From Campylobacterota bacterium (GTDB lineage: Bacteria > Campylobacterota > Campylobacteria > Campylobacterales > Sulfurimonadaceae): a DNA stretch of 51,151 bases. Below, one piece after another: positions 5,198-37,093 of this stretch (positions are counted from its first letter, which is position 1; each line of letters opens with the position of its first letter). The stretch covers positions 1 through 51,151 of the forward strand of contig JAMCPS010000012.1 of the NCBI GenBank assembly GCA_023379705.1. Reading direction: 5' to 3'. The position numbers were made by a program, and so were the translations under genes. Under the pieces are notes generated by a model. It did not search any database, was not told the DNA's origin, and worked only from the letters and a program-made list of their open reading frames with translations.

Positions 5198-6827
5198 TTA
5201 TAGTACTTCTATAATGTTAATACTTTTGTAAAGGGCTTTGGAAAAGTTACGGGTGTGGTGGGTTATGTTCATAAAAATGGCAGTCATATGCTTGGAGATT
5301 TTGTAGTTGGCAATCATGTCATTTAAAATACCGATGCTGTTTTTATAACTGGTATCGAGTTTAATAAAAAGTTTTTCTAGTCTTTCTTTTGCTTCTTCGT
5401 CTCCGTTTAGCCAATCGTTATAGGCCATGCACAAAGCGAGGATTTGGTATCGAAGCTCATGATAGAATGCCGCCATTTCAAGGGTATCCGATTCGGCGAG
5501 CATGGTGATGTCTTCGAGGAGATCTTTGATGTATTTTGAAGCAGCGATGAGCTGTGTTGCCATTAAGAGGGTTTGATCAAATTCTTCGCGTACTTTTGGA
5601 AGTACAATACGAGAAGAGAGCGATGAGGCATATTCTAAAATATCGCCTTGCAGCCGCTGAAGTTCATGATAGAGGTCAGAATGGGGAACATCCATAGGTG
5701 TTTCATATGTTTCGATAATTTTTGAGATCGAAGCATGGTGCTTTAAGCCTTCGGATGGGGGAATTTTGATGGCCCATATGGCAAAGGAACATACCTCGCG
5801 GCCTAGGTGAACTACCTCTTTGTGCAGTGCTTCTTGCGCAAGTGCCGGTATGGCTAGAGGCACATTGTGGATATAAAGTGTCGGAGTTAAATTGGGAGTT
5901 TCAAAATGTTTCATCAGCCACATGGACAGCGGTGTAATCATGGGATACCAAATGAGTACCCCAATGACATTGAAGAGGGTATGAAAAAGCGCGAGGGCTT
6001 CGACGCTTTCGTGTAAGCCGGTATGCGTTACTGTCCATGTAAGCGGTATTAATAAAGCAAGTGCAATAGAGGCCGTGCTTACATTCAAAGAGAACATGGG
6101 CAGCGGCAGTGCGTTTTTTGTCCGATGAGCCTCCGATTGCTCCGATCAATACGGTTACGGTAGTGCCCACATTGGCACCAATCACTAAAACAGCAGCATG
6201 TTCAAAGGAGATAACTCCACTATACAAAGCACCTTGTGCAATGACTACGGAAGCTGAACTGCTTTGGATAATTGCTGTCAAGACGATTCCTGCGGCTAAA
6301 AAAACAAAAATGTTATACTTTTGAAGCTCTTGGATATCGATGATTTGGGAAAGTGTTGAGAAACTCTCTTTTAATCCCTCAATCCCTAGAAAAATGAGGC
6401 CAAAGCCGGCAATGGCGCCAAAGGTATGTCGAATTTTTCCTTCTCCGGTCAGAACACTCCCTATCCCTCCAAAACCAACCATGAAAAGAGCAATGATTTT
6501 GATGTTGAATTTGAATCCAATGAGGGCGATGATCCACCCTGTCGCAGTTGTGCCAATATTGGATCCGAACATAATGCCAATACCGCTTTGAAGGCTCATG
6601 ATTCCTGCTCCTATCAAAGAGAGGGTCATCAGGGTGACTGCTGAAGAGCTTTGCAGCAATGCTGTGGCCACACCACCCGTCAGAAGAGCTTTTGGGTTTG
6701 TGTTTGTAGAAATCTTCACCCATCGCTTAAAAGAATACCCGGCTGCTTTTTTGAGGGAATCTTCCAAATAAAGCATGCCAAACAAAAAAAGTCCGAGAGC
6801 TGAAAATGCTTCTATGTAGATAATCAA
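5198..6827 (-). pseudogene. Na/Pi cotransporter family protein with PhoU-like C-terminal region, split by an apparent +1-nt frameshift near 6086
   Basis: ORF 5901..6827 (FLFGMLYLEDSLKKAAG, QSSSAVTLMTLSLIGAG, GSNIGTTATGWI, QSSSASVV, GANVGTTVTVLIGAIGG..KRTAAAHVLF) runs into the frame of ORF 5198..6097 (NVSTASIALALL...). Removing one base (the c of attcaaa, ~6086) restores AAAHVLFNVSTASIALALL. Confidence 0.85.
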
Positions 6828-6926
6828 TCCATAAACCTTTTTGGGTCATTGTTTAATCGTCGTCACTTGCTGAACGTAGATTGAAAATATAATAACGTAT
6901 AATTACGAAAAAAGAGGATAAAAGCG

Positions 6927-7508
6927 ATGAGCCGTGTTGATAATACTACTTTTTATCATGCCTCAATCGCCGAATACGGTTTGGATGCACGTGGGGTTCA
7001 TTGGCATTCGCGCCAAGCACAGGAAATCCGTTTTAAACAGCTGTTAGCGCTTTTGCCCTCGGACGCAAAAGAGATTGTGGATGCGGGATGCGGTTTTGGA
7101 GATCTGTATTGGTATATGAGTGATCAGCAAAGAGAATCAATGGAATATATTGGTTTAGATGCGCTTGAGGTGATGGTAGATGAGGCGCAGATCCGTACAG
7201 CAAAGAAAATCTATCAATGTGATATTCTAAATGATTTATTGCCAAGCGGGGAATTCTATATCTGCAGCGGTGCACTGAATATTTTGACCCGTTATGAGGC
7301 ACATCGATTTATACGGCGCTGTTATGAGGCATCCAGCAGAGGGATTATTTTTAATTTTTTAGAGGGTGAAGATAGCTCTGAAACTTACAATTATTTACAA
7401 AGAAATCAGATTGAGGCCCTGGGAAATCATTTGGGAGCGCGCCTGAAATTTCGAACCGGGTATTACAAAGAGGATTGCACGGTAGCGTTTTATAAGGATG
7501 CCTACTGA
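6927..7508 (+). CDS. Class I SAM-dependent methyltransferase
   Basis: KEIVDAGCGFGDLYWYM motif I, IGLDALEVMVDEA, CDILNDLLPSGEFYICSGAL. Confidence 0.8.
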   Translation: MSRVDNTTFYHASIAEYGLDARGVHWHSRQAQEIRFKQLLALLPSDAKEIVDAGCGFGDLYWYMSDQQRESMEYIGLDALEVMVDEAQIRTAKKIYQCDILNDLLPSGEFYICSGALNILTRYEAHRFIRRCYEASSRGIIFNFLEGEDSSETYNYLQRNQIEALGNHLGARLKFRTGYYKEDCTVAFYKDAY

Positions 7509-9313
7509 TGTGCGGTGTTTTTGGAATCATAGGGGAGTATTCACCCATAAAAGCGCGTGAAGCTCTAAAAACTTTGGCTCACCGTGGGCGGGACCACTGT
7601 GGTATCGTAGAAAAACGGGGTCTATTTTTAGCGCATCAGCGTCTTTCGATCACCGATACACATGAACGCTCTCATCAGCCGATGCGTCACAAAGAACTCC
7701 TGCTTAGTTTTAATGGAGAAATTTATAATCATCGGCAATTACGTTTAGAATTGGAAGGGTATTCTTGGCAGACACACAGTGATGCTGAGGTGATTTTGGC
7801 AGCATACGAAAAATGGGGGATAGAGTGTCTTAGCCGTTTTGAGGGGATGTTTGCTTTTGCCCTTATGGATAGCGAGAAGCTTTATTTAGTACGGGATCGG
7901 TTTGGAAAAAAGCCGATGTTTTATCATCAAAACAATGAAGCATTTATTTTTGCTTCTGAGATCAAGACGATCAAGCCTTTTCTTAAGTCGGTGAGTATGA
8001 ATGAAGACGCGATGCGCTCGTATCTCAGCTTTTTGGCACCTGCGCCGCCACATACGTTTTATCAGGGAATCGAAAAGCTGGAATCAGGGGAGTGGCTGTG
8101 TTTTGAGAAAGGGTGCATAACTAAGCATGCTTACTATGATGTGTTGGATACCCCATCCTCGACAATAACCACCTACGGTGAAGCTTATGAAGTGATCGAG
8201 CAGGAATTACAGAGATCGATAGCAATGAGATTGGAAACAACACAATCTACGGCGGCATTGCTCTCAGGAGGCATTGACAGTGCACTCATTTGCGCCATCG
8301 CGGCAGAGCAGGGAAAAAAGTTGCCGACGTTTACGCTTGGGTACGATGAATACAGCGGTTACGATGAACGAACCAATGCAAAAGAGAGTGCAAAAGAGCT
8401 AGGTCTTGAACATACCGAAGTTGTTATCGGTCAAAAGGACTTTATTGGGAGCTTGGAGCGGGTTCTGGATCATATGGATGAACCTCTCAATGATCCCGCG
8501 GCAGTGCCACTGTATCTGTTGTTTGCAGCCATAGCCAAAGAAGGCCACAAAGTCGTTCTGAGCGGTGAGGGATCGGATGAGCTGTTTTTGGGATATCGGC
8601 AATATTTTGAGTATTTGGACATCGAACAAGCGGCATCGCTGCACCATAAAAACTGGCTCAAAAAGTACTTTCACAGCCACTTTTCCATGAACCGTGAATG
8701 GGAGTGGTATAAACGTGTTTTTGACGAGACCCTGTTGTTTCGTACATCGGGAGAAAAGTTTACCGATTTACAACAAAATCTTTTGCTGCGGCGCAATGTC
8801 CGTGATAATGAATCCCTTCGTTTTTTGCAACCGTATCGAGAAGCATTTGAAAAAAGTACCCATAGTCATCCGGCACAGTGGTACAGCGCGATCGATCTAA
8901 AACTCTTTGTCGGAGAGCATTTTTTGACAAAGCTGGATCGGGTTTCAATGGCACATACCCTCGAAGCCCGATCCCCGTTTTTGGATCATCGATTGGCGCA
9001 GAGTGTTTTTTCGATTTCCCCCCAGCTGCGTATAGGTGAGGGAGGGACGAAATACCTGCTCAAACAAATAGGGCAAAAGTATCTCAGCGCTACGATTTTG
9101 AACCGTAAGAAAAAAGGGTTTGCCAATCCGTACATGGAGTGGTTGATTGCTTCAGGAAAGATTGATTTGATTCGTGAAGTAAATGTTAAAACAGGATTAT
9201 TTCAACCCGATGAGGTTGAGAAGTATCTCCAATTGGCGCGCAGAGGAAAATTCAAGCAACACGTTTGGGGATTGTATGTTTTGAGTCATTGGATAAATCG
9301 TGAGTTGCTATAA
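7508..9313 (+). CDS. asnB: Asparagine synthase (glutamine-hydrolysing)
   Basis: N-terminal MCGVFGIIGEYSP (class II glutamine amidotransferase), LSFNGEIYNHRQLR, LSGGIDSALICAI PP-loop, LSGEGSDELFLGYRQY. Confidence 0.93.
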   Translation: MCGVFGIIGEYSPIKAREALKTLAHRGRDHCGIVEKRGLFLAHQRLSITDTHERSHQPMRHKELLLSFNGEIYNHRQLRLELEGYSWQTHSDAEVILAAYEKWGIECLSRFEGMFAFALMDSEKLYLVRDRFGKKPMFYHQNNEAFIFASEIKTIKPFLKSVSMNEDAMRSYLSFLAPAPPHTFYQGIEKLESGEWLCFEKGCITKHAYYDVLDTPSSTITTYGEAYEVIEQELQRSIAMRLETTQSTAALLSGGIDSALICAIAAEQGKKLPTFTLGYDEYSGYDERTNAKESAKELGLEHTEVVIGQKDFIGSLERVLDHMDEPLNDPAAVPLYLLFAAIAKEGHKVVLSGEGSDELFLGYRQYFEYLDIEQAASLHHKNWLKKYFHSHFSMNREWEWYKRVFDETLLFRTSGEKFTDLQQNLLLRRNVRDNESLRFLQPYREAFEKSTHSHPAQWYSAIDLKLFVGEHFLTKLDRVSMAHTLEARSPFLDHRLAQSVFSISPQLRIGEGGTKYLLKQIGQKYLSATILNRKKKGFANPYMEWLIASGKIDLIREVNVKTGLFQPDEVEKYLQLARRGKFKQHVWGLYVLSHWINRELL

Positions 9314-32286: not shown

Positions 32287-35010
32287 ATGATAAGTCTCTC
32301 TGAAATACGAAATCGCGCCCTAAAGTTTCAAAAAGAGTGGGAAGGTGAGAAATACGAGCGGGGTGAAGCTCAGAGTTTTTGGAATGACTTTTTTCAAATT
32401 TTCGACGTATCGCGCCGTCGTGTAGCGACATTTGAAGAACCAATCAAAAAACTGGGCGGTTCGCAAGGCTTTATCGACCTGTTTTGGAAAGGTCAGCTTC
32501 TCATCGAGCATAAAAGCTTCGGAAAAGACCTGCGCAAAGCGAAAACTCAAGCATTAGACTATTTCCCCAACATGCCTGAGCGCGACCTTCCTAAATTTAT
32601 CCTCGTTTGTGATTTCCAAAATTTCGAGCTGTATGATTTGGATGAAAACACCGAGTACCATTTCCCTCTTAGCGAACTGCACAAAAATATCGAGATTTTT
32701 GCCTTTATCGCTGGGTATCAAAAGAAAACCTACAAAGCCGAAGAACCGACCAACCGTGCCGCCGCAGAGTTGATGGGAAAACTCCATGACAAACTCCTCG
32801 AAAACGGCTACGAGGGGAAGGATTTAGAACTCTATCTTACGCGACTGCTCTTTTGTATGTTTGCCGAGGATACGGGGATATTCCCCAAAAATGGCTTCCG
32901 AGAGTTTATCGATATCTACACCGACGAGGATGGACGTAATCTGGGTTCTCAAATCGGCTATCTGTTTCAGATTTTCGATACCCCCAATGATAAACGCCCT
33001 AAAAATCTCGATGAGAGTTTTGCGCAGTTCCCTTACGTAAACGGTGCTGTTTTCAGTGAGCAGATAAGGATTGCGACGTTTGACCGTACTATGCGCGAAA
33101 TGCTCCTCGATGCTTGTGCTTTTGACTGGAGCCTTATCAGTCCTGCAATTTTTGGCTCAATGTTCCAAGCGTCCATGGACAGTGCTAAGCGCGGAGAATT
33201 GGGGGCGCACTTTACGAGCGAGAAAAACATCCTAAAAGCGATCAAACCGCTTTTTCTAGATGAACTGTGGGCAGAGTTTGAAAAGGTCAAAAAAACACCC
33301 AAACAGCTCTATGCGTTCCATGATAAAATCTCCCGCCTCCATTTCCTCGACCCTGCATGCGGGAGCGGAAATTTTCTCGTTATTGCTTATCGTGAACTCA
33401 AGCTGTTAGAGTTTGAGATTATGAAGATCACCAAATCGCTGTTGCCGCTCATCCACATTGACCAGTTTTACGGGTTCGAGATTGAGGAACTTCCCAGCCG
33501 TATTACGCAGATGGCGATGCTGTTGATCGATCATCAGATGAACCTCGCAGCCGCGCAGATGTTCGGTGATCCTCATTTCAATATTCCGATCAAAGAGAGT
33601 GCGAATATTTTTAACGTCAATGCGTTGAGAGCAGATTGGAAAGCATTGCTCGACGGGACAAATATCGACTACATCATCGGAAATCCACCGTTTTTAGGTG
33701 CTTCGTTACAATCCAAAGAACAAAAAGAGGATATGACTCTCGTTTTTGAGGGGGTTAAAAATGCGGGAGATTTGGATTTTGTAGCGGCATGGTATATCAA
33801 AGCGGCACAACTAATGCAGGGGACAAGTGCAAAAGCCGCGCTTGTATCGACGAACTCGATCACGCAGGGGGAACAGATTGGAATTTTATGGCAAGAGCTA
33901 TTCAATCGCTATCACGTAAAAATCCATTTTGCCCATCGTACTTTTAAATGGAACAATGAAGCCAAGCGTAACGCCGCCGTCTTTTGTGTCATCATCGGAT
34001 TTGCCGCGCATGATACGAAAAATAAACGCCTTTTTGAGTATGAAACTCCAATCTCTGAACCGCATGAAATCATAGTGCCAAATATTAACCCGTATCTAGT
34101 TAACGGCGATGATTTTGTAATCACTTCACGAAGAACACATATACAAGAATCAGTGCCAAAAATTATTTATGGAAGCAAGCCTACAGATGGAGGAAACTTG
34201 CTTCTTTCGGATGAGGATAAGAAAGAACTTTTAAGAAAAGAACCGAATGCCGAAAAATTTATACGTCCACTGTTGTCTGCGCATGAATTTCTCAATGGAA
34301 AACTAAGATGGTGTTTATGGTTAGTGGATGCTAATCCAACAGAATTAAAACAATTACCGATGATCATGGAAAGAATAGAAGCCGTCAAGCAGTTTCGTTT
34401 ATCCAGTCCAAAAGTGCCGACACAAAAAAAAGCCTCCACTCCTACACTTTTTGCAGAAATACGACAGCCTAACAGTTTTTTTATAGTTATTCCTCGTCAT
34501 TCATCTGAAATTCGTCAGTATATACCGATGGGGTTTTTTGATAATTATTATATAGCTAGTGATTCTATAACAGTTGTTCCCGATGCTAGTATTTATCATT
34601 TTGGCATTTTTACTTCTAAAGCACATATGGACTGGGTACGTTATACGTGCGGACGAATAAAAAGCGATTATCGCTACTCAAACGAAATTGTCTATAATAA
34701 TTTTCCATTCCCGCAGAAAATCATCGACAAACAGCGCGAACAAATCGAAACCTTAGCCCAAACAATCCTCGATGCCCGCACACAATTCCCTGACAGTTCC
34801 CTAGCCGACCTCTATAACCCGCTAACAATGCCCCCGAAACTGCTAAAAGCGCATGAAGCACTCGACAAAGCAGTTGATAAGCTGTATCGTAAAGAGGGGT
34901 TTAAAAGTGATACGGAACGGGTGGCGCATTTGTTTGAACTGAATCGTGGGTTGACTAGTTTGGTGGGGGAAGAGACGAAAAAATTTAAGAAACCAAAAGG
35001 TAATCAATGA
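32287..35010 (+). CDS. Single-chain restriction-modification enzyme, MmeI-like (Type IIL/IIG): PD-(D/E)XK nuclease + N6-adenine methyltransferase + TRD
   Basis: Nuclease motif GFIDLFWKGQLLIEHKSFGKDL (D...EXK); SAM motif FLDPACGSGNFLVIAYREL; catalytic NPPF; C-terminal CGRIKSDYRYSNEIVYNNFPFP typical of MmeI-type proteins. Confidence 0.87.
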   Translation: MISLSEIRNRALKFQKEWEGEKYERGEAQSFWNDFFQIFDVSRRRVATFEEPIKKLGGSQGFIDLFWKGQLLIEHKSFGKDLRKAKTQALDYFPNMPERDLPKFILVCDFQNFELYDLDENTEYHFPLSELHKNIEIFAFIAGYQKKTYKAEEPTNRAAAELMGKLHDKLLENGYEGKDLELYLTRLLFCMFAEDTGIFPKNGFREFIDIYTDEDGRNLGSQIGYLFQIFDTPNDKRPKNLDESFAQFPYVNGAVFSEQIRIATFDRTMREMLLDACAFDWSLISPAIFGSMFQASMDSAKRGELGAHFTSEKNILKAIKPLFLDELWAEFEKVKKTPKQLYAFHDKISRLHFLDPACGSGNFLVIAYRELKLLEFEIMKITKSLLPLIHIDQFYGFEIEELPSRITQMAMLLIDHQMNLAAAQMFGDPHFNIPIKESANIFNVNALRADWKALLDGTNIDYIIGNPPFLGASLQSKEQKEDMTLVFEGVKNAGDLDFVAAWYIKAAQLMQGTSAKAALVSTNSITQGEQIGILWQELFNRYHVKIHFAHRTFKWNNEAKRNAAVFCVIIGFAAHDTKNKRLFEYETPISEPHEIIVPNINPYLVNGDDFVITSRRTHIQESVPKIIYGSKPTDGGNLLLSDEDKKELLRKEPNAEKFIRPLLSAHEFLNGKLRWCLWLVDANPTELKQLPMIMERIEAVKQFRLSSPKVPTQKKASTPTLFAEIRQPNSFFIVIPRHSSEIRQYIPMGFFDNYYIASDSITVVPDASIYHFGIFTSKAHMDWVRYTCGRIKSDYRYSNEIVYNNFPFPQKIIDKQREQIETLAQTILDARTQFPDSSLADLYNPLTMPPKLLKAHEALDKAVDKLYRKEGFKSDTERVAHLFELNRGLTSLVGEETKKFKKPKGNQ

Positions 35011-36074
35011 AGCAATCATATGAGTATTTATTTGCTGGAGTAATTTTAGGATTTTCTATTTCATTATTATTTATTTCATTCTTTACTTTGAATTTGGATG
35101 TACTTAAAGTATTGGCATTTATTATTCCATTTGGAGCGTTCTTATTTGCTATTGCTAAATATGTTGAAGAATTACATTATAAAAAGCAAAAAGATACATA
35201 CGAATTTTACGAAAAAGTAATCTATGAGAAATTTACTGATTTAACTAATAAAATTGGTGATAGGTTCAAATATAGAGAATATTTTTTATCTTTATCAACT
35301 GAAGAAAGATTACTGCACAAACAGGATCTTAAAAAAATAGAATTACTTTTACATCTATTATCGTCTAAAATCAAAAATGATGTACTTGATGGCAATATAA
35401 TTAAGTCCGTCTTTAATGAAACTTCAAAACAAATGTTTTTAAGCCTTTTGGTACATTATCAGCTAAGTTTTCTTTCTCGTCCAGCTGTTGTTTTTGAGAT
35501 ATATGAATATTTATATGACGATATAGATGAATTTAATAAGAAAGCAGATATTCAATTACGAGAAATAAACGATTATCTAAATACAATTGGTAAAAACTCT
35601 ATGAAAGTTAGTGTAGATAATAGTGTTAAAAGTGTTGAAGAATGGTTGGCATTTGTAACTGATAAGACGAATAGTTGTATTGATAGAGAGGAAGTGTTAG
35701 ATATATTGCAGACAATAAAATTTGTATATCCTACCTCTGAAATTTATTCAAATATTGGTCTTGTTTATGCGAAGTGCTTTGATGATCATACAATTGCTTT
35801 AAAATATTTTCAAAAATCTTATTTATTGAATAAAAAAAATATTTATGCTTACAGTGGGGCAATGGTCTCAAATTTTAGAATTAATAAAAAAGTAGACTTA
35901 GCATTTATGGAACTAAAAAGCATGAATCCAGATTTGCTTGAAGATGACTTTATATTGAGAAATAAAATTGGACTTTTATTAGAATTTGGTGATAAAAATA
36001 GGGCAGCAATACTATTAGAAAAGGTTAAAGATCACAATTTAAAAGAAGCGATTGTTAAAAAATTGAATGAGTAA
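35007..36074 (+). CDS. Uncharacterised protein: two N-terminal TM helices, helical region, C-terminal TPR-like segment
   Basis: FAGVILGFSISLLFISFFTLNLDVLKVLAFIIPFGAFLFAIAKYV; later SEIYSNIGLVYAKCFDDHTIALKYFQKSYLLNKKNIYAYSGAM. ATG overlaps the RM stop (ATGA at 35007-35010); strongly AT-rich. Confidence 0.7.
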   Translation: MKQSYEYLFAGVILGFSISLLFISFFTLNLDVLKVLAFIIPFGAFLFAIAKYVEELHYKKQKDTYEFYEKVIYEKFTDLTNKIGDRFKYREYFLSLSTEERLLHKQDLKKIELLLHLLSSKIKNDVLDGNIIKSVFNETSKQMFLSLLVHYQLSFLSRPAVVFEIYEYLYDDIDEFNKKADIQLREINDYLNTIGKNSMKVSVDNSVKSVEEWLAFVTDKTNSCIDREEVLDILQTIKFVYPTSEIYSNIGLVYAKCFDDHTIALKYFQKSYLLNKKNIYAYSGAMVSNFRINKKVDLAFMELKSMNPDLLEDDFILRNKIGLLLEFGDKNRAAILLEKVKDHNLKEAIVKKLNE

Positions 36075-36177: not shown

Positions 36178-36192
36178 TCACATTTTGTGACT
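36178..36192. promoter_or_regulatory. Small perfect palindrome upstream of the ORF6N gene (candidate operator)
   Basis: gtcaca-ttt-tgtgac, 26 nt upstream of the ATG at 36218. Confidence 0.35.
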
Positions 36193-36217: not shown

Positions 36218-37093
36218 ATGAACGAAGTCACCGCATCCATTGACGACAACATCAAAACCAAAATCTATACCATTCGCGGTATGCAGGTGATACTGGATAG
36301 AGATTTGGCGGAGTTATATGGAGTAGAAACTCGTGTGCTCAATCAAGCTGTTAAAAGAAATATAGAGCGGTTTCCTGAAGAATTTATGTTTCAACTGACA
36401 AAAGAAGAAGCAGAAAATTGGATGTCACAAATTGTGATTTCCAATAAGGAACGGATGGGGATACGTAAAATGCCTTTTGTCTTTACTGAGCAAGGAGTGT
36501 CTATGCTTTCGGCTGTGCTCAAAAGTGAAATTGCAGTATCAATCAGTATAAAAATTATCAAAAGTTTTGTCGAAATGCGGAGATTTATTTCAAATAATGT
36601 ACTGATATTTCAAAGACTTGACTCATTAGAGCAAAAGCAGTCCAAAACGGATGTAAAAGTCGATGCAATACTCAATGCCATCGAAGACAAATCGATCAAA
36701 CAAAAACAAGGTATCTTTTACGATGGGCAAGTGTATGATGCGTATATTTTTGTATCGGATCTCATCAAAAGTGCCAAAGAGAGTATTATTCTTATTGACA
36801 ACTACATTGATGATACTGTTTTGACGTTATTATCCAAACGAGATGCGAAGGTAAAAGCGACGATTTACACGAAAAACATTACCAAACAACTAGAACTCGA
36901 TTTGCAAAAATACAATGCGCAATATCCAAATATAGAGCTAAAAAAGTTTAATTCTTCTCATGATAGATTTTTGATTATTGATGCCAAAGAAGTGTATCAT
37001 ATCGGAGCAAGTCTCAAAGATTTGGGTAAAAAGTGGTTTGCATTTTCGAAATTTGATGTGGGTGCATTGGATATATTGGGGAGATTAAAATGA
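36218..37093 (+). CDS. ORF6N domain protein with a C-terminal phospholipase D-like domain
   Basis: IYTIRGMQVILDRDLAELYGVETRVLNQAVKRNIERFPEEFMFQLT...MPFVFTEQGVSMLSAVL (ORF6N); HDRFLIIDAKEVYHIGASLKDLGKKWFAFSK (HxK..D PLD-like). Confidence 0.85.
   Translation: MNEVTASIDDNIKTKIYTIRGMQVILDRDLAELYGVETRVLNQAVKRNIERFPEEFMFQLTKEEAENWMSQIVISNKERMGIRKMPFVFTEQGVSMLSAVLKSEIAVSISIKIIKSFVEMRRFISNNVLIFQRLDSLEQKQSKTDVKVDAILNAIEDKSIKQKQGIFYDGQVYDAYIFVSDLIKSAKESIILIDNYIDDTVLTLLSKRDAKVKATIYTKNITKQLELDLQKYNAQYPNIELKKFNSSHDRFLIIDAKEVYHIGASLKDLGKKWFAFSKFDVGALDILGRLK

Follow-up and report, generated by a model that had tools for sequence, protein, structure and literature searches.

Why should a gene of no recognised family begin inside the stop codon of a restriction-modification (RM) gene whose relatives, the Type IIL / IIG RM enzymes of the MmeI family, are described as single genes (PMC4833311)? 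Is its product a partner of the enzyme, a passenger, or one of many things that such an enzyme may carry? The question is raised by contig JAMCPS010000012.1 (assembly GCA_023379705.1; 51,151 nt, forward strand) of a sulfur-oxidising Campylobacterota bacterium of the Sulfurimonadaceae, which, taken at its full length, we call the window. The genome is metagenome-assembled (183 contigs, 7.9% contamination), as are many of the genomes compared with it; the conserved flanks of the locus sit on one contig, which disfavours a misassembly. The features on which the argument turns are these:

32287 to 35010, forward strand: MmeI-like (Type IIL / IIG) single-chain RM gene, 907 aa (five MmeI Pfam domains, PADLOC, catalytic motifs).
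34105 to 34716, forward strand: target recognition domain (TRD), residues 607-810, variable specificity module (Pfam; divergence from the homologue in genome G081).
34980 to 36071, forward strand: exchanged segment, comprising the last ~10 RM codons and the cargo ORF (comparison with locus L036 of genome G070).
34995 to 35000, forward strand: Shine-Dalgarno-like AAAAGG in the last codons of the RM gene, 6 nt before the partner ATG (sequence).
35007 to 35010, forward strand: shared ATGA, in which the RM stop codon and the start codon of the partner overlap (sequence).
35007 to 36074, forward strand: partner (cargo) gene, 355 aa, without a database family (ORF and library searches).
35028 to 35156, forward strand: two predicted transmembrane helices, residues ~8-26 and ~32-50 (hydropathy; model helices 2-27 and 32-81).
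35736 to 36017, forward strand: TPR-like helical repeats, residues ~244-337 (model; Foldseek matches to consensus TPR proteins).
36218 to 37093, forward strand: ORF6N-domain gene, PADLOC candidate PDC-S05, on the conserved far side of the slot (Pfam, PADLOC; present in the G070 allele too).

The RM open reading frame (2724 nt) is intact, and the Pfam domains MmeI_N, MmeI_hel, MmeI_Mtase, MmeI_TRD and MmeI_C, all above cut-off (E 5.6e-22 to 1.1e-88), span the length of its product, which the PADLOC model REase_MTase_IIG matches with E=0. Among ten homologues the nuclease residues D64-x9-E74-x-K76 are invariant, and so are methylase motifs I (DPACGSGNF) and IV (NPPF). By domains and catalytic motifs, the protein is an MmeI-like Type IIL enzyme, predicted to cleave DNA and to methylate adenine on a single strand. 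Compared with the G081 homologue, its N-terminal, helical, methylase and C-terminal domains are 90-97% identical, its TRD is 56% identical and the cargo is unrelated; in other words, the predicted specificity and the cargo vary while the body of the enzyme is constant. Genes of cytochrome-oxidase/FixH type lie on one side of the locus, and the ORF6N gene, followed by AddB/AddA-like genes, lies on the other.

A first-pass annotation, made from the DNA letters, had proposed that a nuclease, an N6A methylase and a TRD in one chain were tightly coupled to an AT-rich, separately acquired protein with two N-terminal transmembrane helices and a C-terminal TPR-like repeat, and most of this picture holds. 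The MmeI-like chain is as described; the partner ORF is intact and overlaps the RM gene by 4 bp in an exact ATGA, with both frames open; and the partner has two hydropathy maxima near its N-terminus, starting at residues 8 and 32 (2.39 and 2.41), with none above 1.2 beyond residue 60. The drop in G+C is real as well, from 39-46% in the three kilobases before to 25.6% in 35001-36000, the partner gene itself standing at 26%. As for the repeat, TPR proteins are marked by tandem 34-residue helix-turn-helix units. The AlphaFold2 model, which was built from two sequences (pLDDT 73), is all-helical apart from one small beta hairpin; the PDB structures that Foldseek ranks nearest to it are TPR proteins, at modest E-values (1e-3 to 1e-2), which suggests a TPR-like fold at the medium confidence of such a model. 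Pfam gives no TPR match.

What stands at this position in related genomes? A search with the RM enzyme returned many homologues, and the closest of them (91%, 84% and 83% identical) have unrelated genes there. In G070, the same locus encodes an RM enzyme that is 85% identical in nucleotides and 91% in amino acids, between flanks that are 71-73% identical in nucleotides on both sides, and yet the coupled gene encodes a DUF2513 protein of 125 aa that is non-homologous to the 355-aa cargo of the window. Homology between the two alleles ends at RM nucleotide 2693 of 2724 (34979), with ~31 nt of the RM gene still to go, and picks up again at 36071, at the cargo stop codon; by this alignment, only the cargo and about ten last RM codons have been swapped. 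The separate acquisition proposed earlier is supported.

Is the window typical of its relatives? Our survey covered 60 RM loci of Campylobacterota and, outside the phylum, the nearest RM clade (63 loci) and fourteen plasmid regions, which were inspected individually; ORFs in the compared loci were called mechanically. A downstream gene was counted as coupled if its start lay between -8 and +1 relative to the RM stop, and other genes of the same loci served as background. Because some 20% of these background genes are themselves coupled, a 4-bp overlap alone is weak evidence. Coupling downstream of the RM gene, however, is found at 39 of the 60 Campylobacterota loci (65%) as against 82 of 409 background genes (20%; Fisher p = 5.5e-12), and we accordingly reject the habit of a compact genome as the whole explanation. 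The start lies at exactly -4 in 27 of the 39 coupled loci. Relatedness of the enzymes weakens the excess without abolishing it, since 10 of the 17 groups that remain after collapsing RMs at 70% identity are mostly coupled (p = 0.0007). The 5' end has no such pattern, the RM start being coupled to the upstream gene in only 2 of 34 cases.

The identity of the coupled gene follows the enzyme poorly. Among 36 pairs of RMs that are at least 80% identical, only two (L036/L195 and L047/L048) have a downstream gene cluster in common, and a SIR2 cargo is common to RMs just 35-38% identical. There are 24 clusters of coupled genes in all, unrelated to one another, and one of them is the helicase that belongs to the RM operon itself. 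Low G+C is general: the coupled gene lies below its RM in 37 of 39 loci (mean difference -0.082, against +0.002 in the background; p = 4e-13). We also considered whether the tail sequence of the RM gene tracks the cargo family and discarded the idea, as L038, L042 and L088 share a tail and yet the cargo of L042 differs. Taken together, these sequence comparisons leave us nearly certain that a slot exists at the 3' end of these RM genes, even though defence loci turn over fast in general and some replacement, which counts against a slot, would be expected without one.

Coupling is rare in the nearest RM clade outside Campylobacterota, where it occurs in 7 of 63 loci, which is not above background (p = 0.16), and most plasmid copies of the RM are without a coupled cargo; as a general trait of MmeI enzymes, coupling is thus unsupported. 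The first-pass statement that MmeI-type enzymes normally act alone is therefore apt outside Campylobacterota and fails within the phylum, where 39 of 60 are coupled.

How might the cargo be expressed? Within the last RM codons, a Shine-Dalgarno-like motif of at least 4 nt is present at 36 of 39 coupled loci, against 61% expected from shuffles and 6 of 21 uncoupled loci at the same place; promoter-like sites in the region are in no excess over shuffled sequence. Translational coupling of the cargo to the RM gene is likely on these signals.

Several of the occupants are known systems, and many of the 24 clusters are without an assigned function. Among the former are GajA/GajB (Gabija) at L058; Avs4 at L063 and, by similarity, L204; PrrC-like PDC-S06 at L072 and, by similarity, L028, L210 and L213; and SIR2 proteins at L196 and L202, with L209 by similarity and a ThsA-like SIR2 protein at L068. 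The slot also carries an Abi_C/AbiJ-like gene (L061), SLFN_AlbA genes (L037, L208), a TPR + HEPN_LA2681 gene (L133) and genes for pentapeptide-repeat proteins (L047, L048). An ApeA-HEPN gene, PDC-S58, lies behind an RM remnant at L053, and genes for TIR (L197), PemK (L070) and nSTAND (L215) proteins are adjacent but not stop-coupled. Because this position holds known defence genes in relatives, an anti-phage role for the 355-aa cargo is likely, and the defence role suggested in the first pass stands as the most likely one by the company that the gene keeps.

We consider it probable, as a whole, that the 3' end of the RM gene is an exchangeable cargo slot and that the 355-aa gene now fills it, as a swappable anti-phage cargo that is translated along with the enzyme and probably acts as a membrane-anchored abortive-infection effector. 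Comparison of alleles shows that recombination swaps the cargo ORF and a few terminal codons of the RM gene, while the remainder of the RM stays where it is, as do both flanks; the incoming gene starts on or beside the RM stop codon, usually with a Shine-Dalgarno-like motif in the last codons of the RM. The cargo, presumably lacking a promoter of its own, would be translated by re-initiation of, or independent entry beside, the ribosomes that finish the RM, and might thus be made wherever the RM is made; judging by the company, it could serve as a second line once phage DNA escapes restriction. Membrane-anchored abortive infection effectors combine transmembrane helices with a cytosolic helical domain, and the partner is like them in its two N-terminal helices and cytosolic helical or TPR-like part, and unlike them in that it has no sequence match to any Abi or effector model. 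Given the two transmembrane helices, the TPR-like cytosolic part and no recognised enzyme domain, membrane-targeted abortive infection is the likeliest mode of action, in which the cytosolic part might sense a phage product or a partner protein and the two-helix hairpin might disturb the inner membrane. Taken by itself, this is our best guess, held with less than even confidence. Against a slot devoted to defence it must be said that the partner matches no defence family, that several cargos are without assigned function and that related RMs are not independent.

Could the gene instead be a passenger, that is, an A+T-rich newcomer behind the RM, unrelated or selfish in function and no more than tolerated there? 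Its low G+C, the want of any recognised domain and the near absence of relatives would fit. The partner has no match in Pfam, NCBIfam or PHROGs, and no family among the 5027 PADLOC models matches it at E up to 1; homologues beyond short TPR-region matches were not found among PDB sequences, genome contigs, plasmids, phages or viral contigs. Across 228 genomes of the family and 399 of the order, there is one distant relative (25% identity, genome G216), which lies at a contig edge, other matches being short and in the TPR region; an exact end overlap between the relative's two G216 contigs was not found. However, the partner ORF is intact, and among the genes that fill the slot elsewhere are several with an established or candidate role in defence, and so we hold a passenger to be unlikely.

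Less plausible still is a dedicated two-component system, in which the membrane/TPR protein would serve this RM specifically, perhaps as a guard set off by RM inhibition or by accumulating DNA ends. The tight 4-bp coupling and the Shine-Dalgarno-like motif in the RM tail are what one would expect of such a pair, and the first-pass annotation had indeed proposed a specific defence pair whose association should recur across genomes. That proposal is not supported: the closest RMs carry unrelated genes, meaning that the RM does not need this partner, and RM genes are not repeatedly accompanied by the partner family, whose one relative in the family and order genomes is that at the contig edge, no RM-linked one having been found in either set. 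We regard a dedicated pair as improbable. Lastly, that the partner regulates or anchors the RM (as a membrane tether, a control on restriction or a guard against toxicity) rather than acting alone is very improbable. In its favour are the coupling and the motif in the RM tail, the fact that TPR domains typically bind proteins, and the chance that overlapping translation helps the two products to assemble; against it, the majority of homologues outside the phylum manage with no coupled gene, and the slot's other tenants are enzymes or sensors whose independent action is known.

How does the exchangeable slot compare with what is known? In Campylobacter jejuni, the rlo genes are embedded in a Type I RM operon. 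Further examples of Type I operons include DarTG2, which lies between hsdS and hsdR in EPEC (PMC12255303), and TgvAB in Vibrio VPI-2, along with a C. jejuni gene between hsdR and hsdS (PMC11411939); defence genes in such operons have experimental support, and their insertion position has been called a potential recombination hotspot (PMC12255303, PMC11411939). The likeness lies in unrelated defence genes inserted in an RM locus; the difference is that those genes sit between subunit genes, whereas the host here is a one-gene enzyme whose stop codon the cargo overlaps. Nor is the window cargo placed between genes of one multi-gene defence system, strict embedding being confined to an MmeI clade of ~40% identity (RM, cargo, helicase, GIY-YIG) and to Moraxella with its DarT/DarG-like genes. 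The PDC/HEC guilt-by-embedding candidates, which we take from the 2024 preprint of Payne et al. as cited in PMC12988326 and PMC11411939, also resemble what is seen here: PDC-S06 is a coupled cargo, PDC-S58 has an RM remnant next to it, and in the window PDC-S05 (ORF6N) is the first gene after the slot, while the 355-aa family matches no PADLOC PDC model. As for candidates of the PDC/HEC, DarTG2 and TgvAB type, the position is held in relatives by different defence genes (24 clusters; GajAB, Avs4, PDC-S06 and SIR2). With the MmeI family (PMC4833311), the enzyme shares the five-domain chain, the D-x9-E-x-K nuclease, the N6-adenine methylase and the swappable TRD, and it departs from that family in that its stop codon is coupled to an exchangeable cargo gene. 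Type I RM operons are known to harbour embedded defence genes; for a slot at the 3' end of a single-gene Type IIL-like enzyme we found no precedent, our literature search, with most subscription journals and preprints outside it, having returned no description of coupled downstream genes for MmeI/Type IIL or Type IIG enzymes.

A broader claim may be put forward tentatively, at somewhat less than an even chance: MmeI-like enzymes of Campylobacterota would be exchangeable at two places, in the TRD, for specificity, and in a 3' defence cargo that is coupled to the stop codon and takes its start signal from the RM tail, so that the RM would be an expression platform tying cargo output to its own translation, and the present cargo would be the first of a new family of membrane/TPR anti-phage effectors. 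If the slot is real, new anti-phage genes have a simple address, the gene fused to the stop codon, and the logic of embedded defence extends from multi-gene operons to a single gene. It would also raise the question of whether coupling to RM translation times the production of a second-line, possibly suicidal, gene.

Five further chromosomal sites have contents that differ between alleles, in some since the RM itself is gone or replaced. The alternatives are an SLFN_AlbA gene or an RM remnant with a coupled ORF6N gene (L037/L052); DUF2513 or no coupled cargo (L038/L039); a KilA-N-like gene, ORF6N, a 135-aa gene or, behind what is left of an MmeI tail, an ApeA-HEPN gene (L040/L041/L042/L053); DUF2971 + DUF3800, a pentapeptide-repeat protein or toxin-antitoxin-like genes behind an RM remnant (L043/L044/L048/L054); and a 195-aa gene or a pentapeptide-repeat protein (L046/L047). 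The RM has decayed to a C-terminal remnant of ~71 residues at L052 (G078, 7733-8071) and to an N-terminal one of ~98 residues at L054 (G088, 7574-7909); because these remnants lie at the same chromosomal sites, the enzyme has been lost there and the site is still used. At L053 (G150, about 5742-9198), a C5-methylase-type RM stands in place of MmeI, and the C-terminal MmeI remnant overlaps the start of the ApeA-HEPN gene (PDC-S58) by 4 bp. At L044, L045 and L046, the first cargo differs from locus to locus and is each time followed by a DUF3800 gene and another conserved gene, which suggests that exchange in the slot is nested. Many loci have an ORF6N, RhuM or KilA-N-like gene directly behind the RM or its cargo. 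In the window, the palindrome GTCACATTTTGTGAC lies in the intergenic stretch before the ORF6N gene (about 36178-36192); no palindrome that could serve as a slot insertion site is consistent across loci.

The clade of ~40% identity has a conserved operon of three genes, RM, DEAD/ResIII helicase and GIY-YIG (T5orf172) protein (L056, L057, L058, L059, L064, L065, L067, L069 and L070; plasmids L168-L171 and L220-L223), which appears to be a larger restriction system in its own right; here the cargo follows the RM and precedes the helicase. The same operon, empty of cargo, is found on enterobacterial, Aeromonas and Acetobacter plasmids. In plasmid p1 of Moraxella osloensis (L172, 4268-6618), RelB/YafQ-like genes and genes for DUF4433 and macro-domain proteins, a DarT/DarG-like pair, lie between the MmeI-like RM and the helicase.
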